This document shows positions 26,807 to 33,400 of a stretch of DNA of 41,904 nt, one piece after another. The position numbers were made by a program, and so were the translations under genes. The notes under the pieces were generated by a model, which worked only from the letters and a program-made list of their open reading frames with translations, ran no database searches and was not told the origin of the DNA. Positions within the stretch are counted from its first letter, which is position 1; each line of letters starts with the position of its first letter. This DNA is from Xanthobacteraceae bacterium (GTDB lineage Bacteria > Pseudomonadota > Alphaproteobacteria > Rhizobiales > Xanthobacteraceae): the NCBI GenBank assembly GCA_019745775.1, contig JAIESR010000079.1, forward strand, positions 1 to 41,904, written 5' to 3'.

Positions 26807-28036
26807 ATGAACTACGATGCGTATTTCAGTGATGCGCTGGCCCGTCTGCGGGAAGAGCGCCGGTATCGTGTTTTCGCCGACCTCGAACGGCTCGCCGGGC
26901 GGTTCCCCCGCGCGGTATGGCACTCGCCCGATGGCCCGCGCGACGTCATCGTGTGGTGCTCCAACGACTATCTCGGCATGGGCCAGCATCCCAAGGTGAT
27001 CGGCGCCATGGTCGAGACCGCGACCCGGATGGGCACCGGCGCCGGCGGAACCCGCAACATCGCTGGCACCAACCATCCGCTGGTGGAGCTCGAGCGGGAG
27101 CTCGCCGACCTCCACCACAAGGAGTCGGCGCTGGTGTTCACGTCGGGCTATGTCTCCAACGAGACCGGCATCTCGACCCTGGCCAAGTTGATGCCGGGCT
27201 GCCTGATCCTGTCCGACGCCTTCAACCACAATTCGATGATCGAGGGCATCCGGCAGTCGCATTGCGACAAGCAGATCTTCCGTCACAACGACATGGCGCA
27301 TCTCGAGGAGCTTCTGCGCGCCACCGATCCCGCGCGGCCGAAGCTGATCGTGTTCGAGACGCTTTATTCCATGGACGGCGACTGCGCGCCGGTGAACGCG
27401 ATCTGCGATCTCGCGGAGAGATACGGCGCCATGACCTATGCCGACGAGGTGCACGCGGTCGGCATGTACGGTCCGCGCGGCGGCGGCCAGGCCGAGCTGC
27501 AAGGCGCGATGGCGCGCGTCGACGTGCTCGAAGGCACCCTCGCCAAGGCGTTCGGCTGCCTCGGCGGCTACATCGCCGCGAAGGCGTCGCTGATCGACGC
27601 GGTGCGCAGCTATGCGCCGGGCTTCATCTTCACCACCGCGCTGCCGCCGTCGATCTGCGCCGCGGCGACCGCGGCGATCCGCCACCTCAAGGCGTCGAGC
27701 TACGAGCGCGAGCGCCACCAGGACCGCGCCGCGCGCGTGAAGGCGGTGCTCGCGGCCGCCGGCCTGCCGGTCATGATGAACGACACCCACATCGTGCCGG
27801 TGTTCGTCGGCGATCCGGAGAAGTGCAAGGAAGCGACCGACATCCTGCTCGAGGAGCACGGCATCTACATCCAGCCGATCAACTATCCGACGGTGCCGAA
27901 GGGTACCGAGCGGCTGCGCATCACGCCCTCGCCCTATCACGAGGACGCGCTGATCGACGCACTGGCGGAAGCGCTGCTGGACGTCTGGGAGCGACTCGAC
28001 CTGCCGCTCAAGCCGCGCGCGATGGCGGCGGAGTAG
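26807..28036 (+). CDS. hemA: 5-aminolevulinate synthase
   Basis: A 409-residue PLP enzyme condensing glycine and succinyl-CoA to 5-aminolevulinate, the C4 route of heme and tetrapyrrole synthesis confined to Alphaproteobacteria and mitochondria. The marks are [60 protein letters not shown] and the PLP lysine K247 in [16 protein letters not shown]. The ATG at 26807 is preceded by GGGGAAGG. The last 125 bp, including the stop, are repeated at 33276-33400 with 8 differences. A weak promoter candidate lies upstream (TCGACA at 26723, CTAAAA at 26746, 17-bp spacer). No obvious FNR/FixK palindrome was seen. Confidence 0.97.
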
Positions 28037-28424: not shown

Positions 28425-28449
28425 CGGGATGCGGGTAGTGGGTCAGTTT
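28425..28449. repeat. Left boundary repeat of the A+T-rich cassette
   Basis: Contains CGGGATGCGGGT (28425-28436), which recurs in the same orientation at 30847-30858, and GTGGGTCAGTTT (28438-28449), which recurs inverted at 30832-30843. CCTAGGA follows on both sides (28473, 30870). These mark the edges of the 2.4-kb segment holding the Ntn hydrolase and transposase. Confidence 0.6.
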
Positions 28450-28509
28450 GACTTCAATCCTATTGACACGAACCTAGGAAAGCGCCGGTGACGGAGGCAT
28501 ATTGGATGC

Positions 28510-28749
28510 ATGGATCAGCGCCGAAAACGCCCGCGCGACCCAGCTCAGCTGGCGAAATTCGTGATCGACCTCGCCACTGGCGAGGCCGAGGAGCCCCCTC
28601 ATCAGGCAGAGGAGACGGCAGCGACCAAGTTCGCCCGAAGTGGTGGGCTAAAGGGCGGCAAGGCGCGGGCCGAAGCCTTATCGCCGCGCCGTCGAAAGCA
28701 GATCGCTCGGCAGGCCGCAGCAAAACGCTGGGGCAAGGATCGCTCCTAA
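28510..28749 (+). CDS. Small basic protein upstream of the Ntn hydrolase
   Basis: A 79-residue, Lys/Arg-rich protein: PRDPAQLAKFVIDLATGE at the N-terminus, then ARSGGLKGGKARAEALS and RRKQIARQAAAKRWGK. This GGxKGGxARA...AxxRW pattern is common in small bacterial proteins of unknown, possibly DNA-binding function. GGAGG lies 12 bp before the ATG, a long spacing. The next gene (Ntn hydrolase) starts 65 bp downstream on the same strand, suggesting a two-gene unit. It sits inside the accessory segment downstream of hemA. Confidence 0.7.
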   Translation: MDQRRKRPRDPAQLAKFVIDLATGEAEEPPHQAEETAATKFARSGGLKGGKARAEALSPRRRKQIARQAAAKRWGKDRS

Positions 28750-28814
28750 GTCTCACTGCAAGCAAGGATTGTGGTAGCCTCCTACGGCAACGACGCGACC
28801 GAGGGAGGAAAGAT

Positions 28815-29756
28815 TTGACCGTATGCATCGCTGCTCGCTGTCTAGATGGGGCTGTTTTTTGCGCAGCTGACCGAATGGTCACCGTTGGCGACATCGAAAT
28901 GGAGTCGCCTCAGACAAAGATATTTTCGCTGTCAAACTCGCTTTTGATTATGCCCAGCGATGACGATGCCGCATTTCATATGGAGATAATGAATGATGTT
29001 TCCACAACGATTCACGCTCGTATAAATGCTGATCGAGACCGCTGGTGGACAGTACAAGAAGCAGTTGATGTGTATGTGTCGTGTGTCGAGGAGCATCGCG
29101 CTAAGCGCTCTGAGCGGTCGATACTCAAGCCATTAGGGCTGGATCGTTATTCATGGCACATATCGGTGAGCCCAGATTCTGAGCTGGGAAAGCAAATCGC
29201 GTCCGACTTGGTGAATTTCAAAATCCCGTTCCTTTCAGTGATTATCGTCGGCATTGATCCCAATGGACCACACATTAATGTGGTTGAGACGAGCGAATAC
29301 GGACAGATTGATACCGGCTGCTACGATTCAATTGGCTTTGCTGCTATCGGCGCAGGCGGCCGACATGCACGCGCTGAATTCTTGGCAGCCGGTCACACGT
29401 ATCGGACCCCGCTTCCAGAGGCGCTCTGGAATGTTTATTTGGCGAAGAAGCGTTCTGAGGTCGCCCCCGGTGTCGGGTCCGCCACCGATATGTACATGAT
29501 GGGGCCAACTCTAGGTTTTGGCACGACGATTAGAACCGAGATAACGGACGAACTAGAAAGGCAATACGTTATCACTCGTGCCAAAGAAGAGGCGGCGCGC
29601 CAGACAGCTGCAAAGGACATGACCACCTATGTCGAAACCATCACGCAAGAATCCCAGCAGCAGCAAATTCAAACCTCAGTCACGGACACAGGCGAGCCTA
29701 TTGAGACCCCAAATGAGCCTGCTGAGGGGATCGAGCACAAACCTCAAGAATCGTGA
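28815..29756 (+). CDS. Proteasome-beta-like Ntn hydrolase with TTG start
   Basis: A 313-residue protein whose first 200 residues resemble 20S proteasome/HslV-type Ntn hydrolases: M-TVCIAARCLDGAVFCAADRMV ... ESPQTKIFSLSNSLLIM. The TTG at 28815 has a near-ideal GGGAGG 6 bp upstream. Removing Met leaves Thr1; Asp18 (AADR) and Lys34 (TKIF) then sit where proteasomes have Asp17 and Lys33. This is neither HslV nor Anbu by wording, and there is no ATPase partner in the window. Residues about 245-313 form a charged Gln/Glu-rich tail, probably coiled then disordered. The gene is A+T-rich against its surroundings, preceded by a small basic protein and followed by a transposase. Peptidase activity is a prediction; a structural-only role is possible. 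Confidence 0.7.
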   Translation: MTVCIAARCLDGAVFCAADRMVTVGDIEMESPQTKIFSLSNSLLIMPSDDDAAFHMEIMNDVSTTIHARINADRDRWWTVQEAVDVYVSCVEEHRAKRSERSILKPLGLDRYSWHISVSPDSELGKQIASDLVNFKIPFLSVIIVGIDPNGPHINVVETSEYGQIDTGCYDSIGFAAIGAGGRHARAEFLAAGHTYRTPLPEALWNVYLAKKRSEVAPGVGSATDMYMMGPTLGFGTTIRTEITDELERQYVITRAKEEAARQTAAKDMTTYVETITQESQQQQIQTSVTDTGEPIETPNEPAEGIEHKPQES

Positions 29757-29763
29757 TGTTTCC

Positions 29764-29779
29764 CGCTCATTGCTGAGCG
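29764..29779. terminator. Stem-loop after the Ntn hydrolase gene
   Basis: CGCTCA-TTGC-TGAGCG starts 7 bp after the stop codon. It is followed by AAAA, not T, on the plus strand, so it is at best a weak or RNA-stability hairpin. Confidence 0.35.
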
Positions 29780-29810
29780 AAAAGGCGCTCGGTAGGCGCG
29801 CAAATCCAAA

Positions 29811-29852
29811 ATGACCCTTATGCTTGACAGTCAAGCATAAGGGTCATATAGT
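29811..29852 (+). promoter_or_regulatory. Palindromic sigma70-type promoter of the transposase
   Basis: A perfect inverted repeat with 18-bp arms (ATGACCCTTATGCTTGAC / GTCAAGCATAAGGGTCAT) and one central A occupies 29811-29847. It contains TTGACA (29824-29829); 17 bp further lies TATAGT (29847-29852). Transcription would start about at the transposase ATG (29859), giving a leaderless mRNA. The palindrome may be an operator, a transposase binding site or an attachment site. Confidence 0.75.
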
Positions 29853-29858
29853 CCAGTC

Positions 29859-30767
29859 ATGAACAGGCTGGACGCCAAGGGCCGTGCGCAAATCCTCCAC
29901 TTGCTCTGTGAGGGTAATTCGATCCGTGCGGTTACTCGGCTGACCGGAGCCAGCAAAAACACTGTTACGAAATTGATGATCGACGCGGGCCGCGCTTGCG
30001 ACGACTACCACCATTGGAAAGTTCACGGCCTCCAATCGAAGCGCGTGCAGGTCGATGAAATTTGGTCGTTCGTCTATTCGAAGCAGGCCAACGCGCCCAA
30101 GACCAAGAACCAAGTCAAGGGCCGCGGCGATTGCTGGACCTGGACGGCGATCGATGCCGATAGCAAGTTTCTGATCAGCTACTACGTTGGCACGCGCGAT
30201 GGTGAGTCCGCGTTCTTTTTCTTGAGCGATCTCAAGAGCCGCCTTGCTGGTCGCGTGCAACTAACCAGTGATGGACACAACGCCTACTATCGCGCGGTCG
30301 CTGACTCGTTTGGCGAAAAGGAAGTCGATTACGCCCAACTTGTGAAGCTGTACGGCTCCCCGAAAGAGGGCGCGCCTGGTTCTGCTGAGCGGCGCTATAG
30401 CCCGGCGGTTTGCACTGGCGCAAAGCCGTTTGCGGTGTTCGGCAAGCCCGAACGTAGACACGTCAGCACGTCCTATGCGGAGCGGCAGAATTTGAATTTG
30501 CGGATGCACAATCGCCGCTTCACACGATTGACCAATGCATTCTCAAAGAAACTCGAAAACCATTATTGGGCCATCGCGCTTTTCACGTTCTACTACAACT
30601 TCGTTCGCATCCATAAAACGCTTCGCGTCACTCCTGCGATGGCCGCTGGCGTTACGGACAAGCTCTGGGAAATGTCCGACATGGTGCAGATGCTTGAGGC
30701 GTTCGAGGCCAAACAGATTGAGGCGAAGCGCAATCACGCGCTAGAGCCAGCGGGCGCGTGGGAGTGA
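29859..30767 (+). CDS. IS1-like DDE transposase
   Basis: A 302-residue transposase. It has an N-terminal helix-turn-helix (ILHLLCEGNSIRAVTRLTG, SKNTVTKLMIDAG), then the DDE catalytic residues: D66 in VQVDEIWSF, D138 in LTSDGHNAYY and E208 in SYAERQNLNLR, followed by NRRFTRLTNAFSKKLENHYW. I place it with the proteins annotated as IS1 family in rhizobia, longer than the E. coli InsAB product; it needs no frameshift. No Shine-Dalgarno precedes the ATG, which fits leaderless translation from the promoter at 29811-29852. I could not find convincing terminal inverted repeats, so the ends of the element are undefined. All three catalytic residues are present, so it may be active. Confidence 0.85.
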   Translation: MNRLDAKGRAQILHLLCEGNSIRAVTRLTGASKNTVTKLMIDAGRACDDYHHWKVHGLQSKRVQVDEIWSFVYSKQANAPKTKNQVKGRGDCWTWTAIDADSKFLISYYVGTRDGESAFFFLSDLKSRLAGRVQLTSDGHNAYYRAVADSFGEKEVDYAQLVKLYGSPKEGAPGSAERRYSPAVCTGAKPFAVFGKPERRHVSTSYAERQNLNLRMHNRRFTRLTNAFSKKLENHYWAIALFTFYYNFVRIHKTLRVTPAMAAGVTDKLWEMSDMVQMLEAFEAKQIEAKRNHALEPAGAWE

Positions 30768-30831
30768 AAATGAACAACGCGTGTAATTCATCAACGTGGT
30801 CTGATTGGGACTTTTATCCGCCGCCACAATG

Positions 30832-30858
30832 AAACTGACCCACCACCGGGATGCGGGT
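30832..30858. repeat. Right boundary repeat of the A+T-rich cassette
   Basis: AAACTGACCCAC (30832-30843) is the inverse of 28438-28449, and CGGGATGCGGGT (30847-30858) repeats 28425-28436 directly; CCTAGGA follows at 30870. It closes the segment that starts at 28425. Confidence 0.6.
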
Positions 30859-33275: not shown

Positions 33276-33400
33276 GGCTGCGCATCACGCCCTCGCCCTA
33301 TCACGAGGACGCGCTGATCGATGCGCTGGCGGAAGCGCTGCTGGACGTCTGGGAGCGGCTCGAACTGCCGCTTAAGCCGCGGGCGACGGCGGCGGAGTAA
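33276..33400 (+). pseudogene. Duplicate of the hemA 3' end
   Basis: 125 bp match the last 125 bp of hemA (27912-28036) with 8 differences and no gaps, in the same orientation. The frame reads [20 protein letters not shown] and on to TAAE-stop. Four differences are synonymous, three change an amino acid and one changes TAG to TAA, so the copy diverged while still coding. No upstream hemA sequence precedes it. It could be a displaced original 3' end left by an insertion, or the last trace of a second hemA. Confidence 0.9.

Follow-up and report, generated by a model that had tools for sequence, protein, structure and literature searches.

Proteasome-like Ntn hydrolase gene carried as cargo by an IS1-type transposon of a Xanthobacteraceae bacterium, with a possible link to defence

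The closest described relatives of the protein studied here are the beta subunits of the 20S proteasome (PF00227, peptidase family T1), with which it has the fold and the N-terminal Thr, Asp and Lys in common, and the prokaryotic proteasome-like proteins HslV, Anbu, BPH and connectase. In the sections drawn on here, Fuchs, Alva and Lupas report 22 new families of such proteins, rare and divergent prokaryotic homologues like ours, and no genomic context suggesting a specific function (Fuchs et al., 2021; PMC8665760). Our family may be among them, for instance as DPH or PMI, which is a guess. The main text of that paper, as far as covered, contains no word starting with "transpos", and a literature search for proteasome genes as passengers of insertion sequences found none in the sources it covered. 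IS1 and IS1595 elements with passengers share a DDE transposase, inverted ends and an 8-bp duplication with the element described below. Passenger genes in IS1595 elements are known. The IS1-type group to which our element belongs differs from the known IS1 and IS1595 passenger elements in combining a constant KGG gene with a variable cargo. What is new here is a proteasome-like homologue in a mobile context and, through it, an indirect link to defence. Orphan proteasome-like families have so far been without functional context, and the cargo slot is a first clue to their role.

The window, the whole stretch of 41,904 nucleotides that was analysed, contains a proteasome-like open reading frame which is real (Table 1). 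A preliminary description of this gene had given it a near-ideal Shine-Dalgarno sequence 6 bp before a TTG codon, a product starting with Met-Thr-Val-Cys in which Asp18 and Lys34 lie one residue off proteasome Asp17/Lys33, a charged tail of 70 residues and a KGG-type neighbor on an A+T-rich segment. We found start (28815-28817), stop (29754-29756), GGAGG, N-terminus and KGG gene as described. Once Met is taken off, the candidate active-site residues are numbered Thr1, Asp18 and Lys34, and the homologue in G007, a genome from the same genus, has Thr1, Asp17, Lys33 and Gly47 exactly (hand count on the sequence). The same frame is also open before the TTG, with a GTG at 28488, but this part overlaps the KGG gene, which is in another frame. 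The chosen start is supported by Met-Thr, which all 13 homologues keep while using different start codons (ATG in six, GTG in four, TTG in three). With 15 Asp/Glu and 6 Lys/Arg in the last 70 residues, the tail is acidic. The GC content of the gene is 51.7%, compared to 65.7% outside the element, in line with the A+T-rich setting noted earlier. The window and G007 proteins are 41% identical. Over 299 codons their genes differ at 136, 106 and 198 first, second and third codon positions, 43 of the 59 comparable fourfold sites differ and 128 of the 299 amino acids are identical; this pattern indicates that the protein sequence has been under constraint.

Table 1. Features of the transposon and its cargo gene (positions in the window).
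Feature	Position	Strand	Remark
Target duplication, left copy GGGATGCG	28426..28433	.	8 bp, perfect
Left terminal inverted repeat GGTAGTGGGTCAGTTTGACT	28434..28453	+	17/20 positions match other end
KGG-type small basic protein	28510..28749	+	79 aa; PHROG 2384 match E 2.9e-5
Shine-Dalgarno GGAGG	28804..28808	+	6 nt 5' of TTG
Proteasome-like Ntn hydrolase	28815..29756	+	313 aa, TTG start, Met-Thr; cargo gene
Inverted repeat, 18 bp perfect, 1-bp spacer	29811..29847	.	Overlaps promoter-like hexamers before transposase
IS1-type DDE transposase	29859..30767	+	302 aa, single ORF
Right terminal inverted repeat GGTGGTGGGTCAGTTTCATT	30828..30847	-	Pairs with left end
Target duplication, right copy GGGATGCG	30848..30855	.	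8 bp, perfect

Positions 28434-30847 are a 2,414-bp IS1-type transposon in which the Ntn gene is cargo between the KGG gene and the transposase gene, all three on the plus strand. Both the transposon and the cargo status follow directly from the computation and are practically certain. The element ends are GGTAGTGGGTCAGTTTGA and GGTGGTGGGTCAGTTTCA, matching at 17 of 20 positions. The transposase passes the cut-off of PF03400 (26.7 bits vs. 24.1) and matches NF033558 (E 9.7e-15) with 55 bits, which is under the cut-off of 100 of that model. The KGG gene product contains 20 K/R and 10 D/E. Within the palindrome region 5' of the transposase gene, hexamers TTGACA(17)TATAGT were recognized by eye. 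The element looks single-copy, as the end motif (<= 2 mismatches) has one other site only in the 6.3-Mb genome and the Ntn gene is present in one copy. The pairing with a KGG gene on an A+T-rich accessory segment is real, and the segment turned out to be a transposon bounded by inverted repeats and a target duplication, a setting that the preliminary description had missed. As the KGG gene is constant in all 30 delimited elements of the group (see below), the pairing does not show that the two genes form a peptidase system of their own, and a dedicated operon of KGG and Ntn genes was rejected on the same ground.

The palindrome sits over a strong promoter-like site, and pieces of it are found again in many sister elements. 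GCTTG was found in 27, AAGCAT in 19 and both in 13 of 38 loci, against mononucleotide-shuffle expectations of 4.7%, 2.9% and 0.1%, the loci being related and hence not independent.

Structure prediction makes a proteasome-like fold of the window protein very probable. An AlphaFold2 model trimmed to residues 1-245 and based on three aligned sequences reached a pLDDT of 76.7 and a pTM of 0.77; it is the single good model of five, the remaining four having mean pLDDT values of 50-52. Its elements follow the proteasome order, with four strands before and four after a long helical part and then two helices and two strands. A Foldseek search of the PDB with this model gave 819 matches at E <= 0.001 (best E 7e-11), and the best 50 of these are all proteasome structures, with TM-scores by target of up to 0.78. 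The proteasome-like sandwich anticipated in the preliminary description was found in this way. The model of the whole protein (pLDDT 53.1), whose best 50 Foldseek matches are also all proteasome, was set aside as too weak. A ten-row profile compared to PDB sequences yielded 155 matches at E <= 0.01 (best E 5.4e-8), of which the best 60 are all proteasome subunits. In the Pfam scan the window protein scored 17.1 bits with the Proteasome model PF00227, under the curated cut-off of 22.4. This cut-off was passed by three of nine relatives (L008, 26.0 bits; L010, 31.8; L101, 30.4); three others scored below it (L004, 13.0; L009, 19.8; L103, 15.1) and L100, L102 and L104 gave no match in the scan. 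An NCBIfam scan of the window protein gave no match.

The active site was compared in an alignment of 13 distinct homologues, ten from genomes and three from viral contigs. Thr, Asp and Lys, the residues on which the original reading depended, are invariant in all 13, at spacings within a few residues of proteasome Thr1, Asp17 and Lys33. The oxyanion Gly (proteasome Gly47) is present in 11 of the 13 and missing in the window protein and L113. At this place the window protein has PSDDDAAF, with Asp for Gly and a one-residue insertion, compared to AGDSAF, and L113 has AADD. The residues aligned by eye with what we take to be proteasome Asp166 and Ser169 are not kept. The invariant triad, together with Gly in 11 of 13, makes the family look catalytic, and activity of its members is likely; the window copy may be weakened and, with its oxyanion Gly missing, its peptidase function is unproven. 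Apart from this Gly and the sub-threshold Pfam score, the window protein differs from 20S beta subunits in having no propeptide and a long acidic tail predicted to be helical, and its element has no ATPase-type gene. The C-terminal helix H5 of Anbu, which forms a coiled coil according to the part of PMC8665760 used here, bears a likeness to this tail.

The placement of the protein outside HslV and Anbu fits the rest of the genome. An HslV-type gene lies beside an HslU-type gene away from the element, which itself has no hslU partner, and a second proteasome-family gene lies elsewhere (names assigned by eye). The second protein (L002) we provisionally take to be Anbu. In hhalign comparisons, a weak test with single sequences, the window protein gave E 0.07 with the HslV-type and E 0.35 with the second protein. 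An ATPase-type P-loop was not found in the window element, and the Walker A motif was absent from open stretches of at least 150 aa in all nine Ntn elements. No common partner gene was found among the recognized neighbors across the IS1- and IS1595-type Ntn elements.

Nine of the 13 distinct homologues lie between the inverted ends of IS1- or IS1595-type elements; the target duplication is an exact 8 bp in six of them, matches at 7 of 8 in one and is lacking in two. Seven of these nine are among the ten genome homologues (window, G007, G177, G244 twice, G1230 and G1234), and the duplication is exact in all of these except G1234, which has 7 of 8. The G007 element (2,449 bp) carries the same three genes as the window element, with an 8-bp duplication at a different target. 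These two have IS1-type transposases, and the remaining genome elements have IS1595-type transposases, assigned through PF12762 for L008 and L009 and by blastn/tblastn for the others. The other two of the nine are on viral contigs (L110 and L113), where the Ntn gene lies downstream of the transposase gene within an IS1-type element that has inverted ends and a KGG gene but no duplication. L111 is identical to L110 and L112 differs from it by one base, so that four viral-classed contigs (L110 to L113) carry KGG-type IS1 elements with a proteasome-like gene. Two of the IS1595 Ntn elements also carry a further protein, weakly BRO-N-like in one (L103:3609-4841, below the cut-off) and of KilA-N type in the other (L104:6078-6953).

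In a tree of ten members, transposon-borne genes stand on both sides of the single deep split (100/100), which indicates that capture or exchange recurred; the forks nearest the window are supported at 85-91% only. Genome G244 has one IS1595 element in two copies (L020 and L021), whose 1,159 bp around the transposase gene and a small basic gene are 95.9% identical. By contrast, the two Ntn cargos agree at only 53 of 286 aligned residues, and over the cargo half blastn found no alignment beyond 60 bp at the end. Near-identical transposase halves with divergent Ntn cargo point to cargo exchange.

The gene is found in few genomes in each scan. The search among relatives found it in 2 of 150 genomes, two order samples with overlapping genomes in 3 of 397 and 3 of 234, and family searches in 1 of 28 (family of G244) and 6 of 103 (family of G177). 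A scan of genome contigs gave two loci, and class and phylum samples gave the genome of the window only. Reading any single scan as a census was rejected as results vary among scans, and the counts are lower bounds. The window protein had no match in plasmids or phages, and plasmid searches with four further Ntn homologues had none. Viral contigs gave none with a single protein or the first alignment and five with the ten-row alignment.

To see what sister elements carry in the cargo slot, elements similar to the window transposase were collected, and the proportions given here apply to this group only. Among 297 genomes of the order, 34 had a match in the transposase search. The 38 loci consist of the window, L022 (G007), six of 17 plasmid records and 30 of the 44 transposase matches listed. 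Seven undelimited loci (L017, L064, L068, L079, L082, L083 and L084) and one that is delimited but distant (L018, 28% transposase identity) were not counted. Left were 30 close IS1-type elements with delimited ends. An 8-bp duplication flanks 24 of them; the other six (L013, L059, L070, L076, L077 and L078) have none and were delimited by ends set by hand. A KGG gene is inside all 30, in the orientation of the transposase in 29. Cargo ORFs of at least 140 aa number 59, of which 40 were scanned against Pfam; the ORFs were picked by a greedy rule, and some of their starts must be wrong.

When the cargo is sorted by BLAST cluster and Pfam, 15 of the 30 elements carry a protein of the XRE/M78 cluster, including L073 with a short M78 protein, and 14 of the 15 proteins have the M78 domain. 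In PADLOC, these 15 matched at E <= 1e-10 models of RmrA (eight) and PD-Lambda-2_B (seven). RosmerTA (RmrA) and PD-Lambda-2 have been described as phage-defence systems, and both include a protease domain (PMC10440598, PMC9519451, in the excerpts used here). HTH-metallopeptidase proteins related to the protease-domain components of these toxin-antitoxin systems fill the same slot in the sister transposons, whereas the window cargo matches no PADLOC model. PADLOC assigned no family to the Ntn and KGG proteins of the window. The other cargo comprises a ClpP-like SDH protease in three elements, P63C in three, Fic in two, a HipA-like kinase in two, the window-type Ntn protein in two and L057-type Thr/Asp/Lys proteins in two. 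It is unclassified in three (L061, L070 and L074, the last without a Pfam scan). L071 and L073 hold two cargo classes each, and a further ORF of L078, which clusters with Fic by BLAST, was not counted as Fic.

The ClpP-like SDH serine proteinases are the cargo of L015, L065 and L067, and the P63C proteins that of L069 (3870-4979), L072 (5971-7056) and L073 (5863-6948). The latter cluster by BLAST with KGG proteins, apparently via an N-terminal KGG-like stretch. One ClpP-like and one P63C protein were scanned with PADLOC, and neither had a match. Searches for IS1595 plasmid records gave 48 and 42 in two rounds; four related loci were opened, and in two of them PIN/VapC-type genes lie within an element delimited by its ends and a duplication.

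The reading we prefer, with about even confidence, is that of a proteasome-like threonine hydrolase that can be swapped for other cargo and most likely works in defence or addiction. That role is favored because the slot in sister elements often holds relatives of toxin-antitoxin and anti-phage proteins, several with protease domains; as an analogy drawn from the shared slot, it is plausible at a little under even confidence. Of the earlier proposal of a defence or stress protein, the defence part gains indirect support from the sibling cargo and none from PADLOC for the window protein. Removal of Met before Thr is usual. We infer Met removal, catalysis, oligomeric state, substrate and defence role together as a mechanism in which Met removal would expose Thr1, and Thr1, Asp18 and Lys34 would make up an active site of proteasome type. 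This site would be borne by the proteasome-like sandwich, to which the acidic helical tail is joined at the C-terminal side. Because the element has no ATPase-type P-loop, the enzyme would probably be uncapped and attack unfolded or specific proteins by itself or together with host factors. By proteolysis it would then confer host benefit or addiction, probably against phage. A more specific version, tentative and rather doubtful, is that of an ATPase-free transposon-borne protease that is a mobile anti-phage or addiction effector, interchangeable with RosmerTA-like, PD-Lambda-2-like and ClpP-like modules. If true, the proteasome fold has been recruited as a portable bacterial immune protease. 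An exchangeable proteasome-like cargo in a slot shared with anti-phage relatives gives a direct hypothesis and ready sequences for testing, and the KGG-marked transposon group of Alphaproteobacteria outlined here has a cargo slot that can be mined for defence or protease modules.

A chromosomal proteasome-like gene with an ordinary, perhaps stress-related, function could also have been captured repeatedly by IS1 and IS1595 elements with no role in defence. No transposon was found near four of the 13 homologues: the stretches examined around L100, L101 and L102 contain neither a transposase gene nor ends (just 215 bp upstream for L100), and none was found near the Ntn gene of viral contig L109. 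The neighbors of L101 and L102 differ by eye, and the new proteasome homologues of Fuchs et al. (2021; PMC8665760) have, in the sections used, no function-suggesting context either. This simple capture is nevertheless unlikely, as transposon-borne members in both clades speak for recurrent capture or exchange and sibling elements hold defence-like proteins in the same slot. A regulatory role within the transposon, with the transposase or the KGG protein as a possible substrate for degradation, is improbable. The same strand and tight spacing of the Ntn, KGG and transposase genes in the window and G007, and the palindromic promoter region before the transposase gene, would suit such a regulator, but 28 of the 30 elements have KGG and transposase genes and no window-type Ntn protein at E < 0.01, so that it is dispensable, and the IS1595 elements pair it with another transposase family.

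The chemistry might also be different. Connectase is a proteasome-like homologue acting as a ligase (PMC8665760, sections used here), and the family could by this precedent be a specific ligase or amidohydrolase and not a protease. We consider this very improbable, since the Ntn model is predicted to have the first helix pair, absent from connectase, and to lack a helical insert between strands 3 and 4. That the window copy is a passenger with weakened or lost catalysis, which is compatible with the other readings, is possible and on the unlikely side. The Asp for the oxyanion Gly and the one-residue insertion argue for it; against it stand the frame, intact over 313 codons, the kept triad and the constrained codon positions. 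Moreover, the oxyanion hole uses a backbone NH, so that loss of Gly need not abolish the hole.

Another Met-Thr family is present in two sister IS1-type elements (L057:3537-4802 and L058:6068-7675), with N-terminus Met-Thr-Thr-Glu and Asp18 and Lys34 conserved. Five plasmid homologues of L057 were opened, and three of them (L086, L087 and L088) lie near multiubiquitin and ThiF genes. With a profile of L057 and the five homologues, no PDB match at E <= 1 was a proteasome and Pfam gave no proteasome match, and hhalign of the L057 profile with the window family gave E 0.0015 and a probability of 17%. A second proteasome family was for this reason set aside and is a lead only. The surroundings of the window transposon have a further feature. 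A 124-bp direct repeat (94%) at 27912-28035 and 33276-33399 duplicates the 3' end of a 5-aminolevulinate-synthase-like gene. Between the repeats lie 5.4 kb with the transposon and with genes for a TctC-like receptor and a MarR-like protein (names by eye); this segment looks like an inserted island or a duplication.
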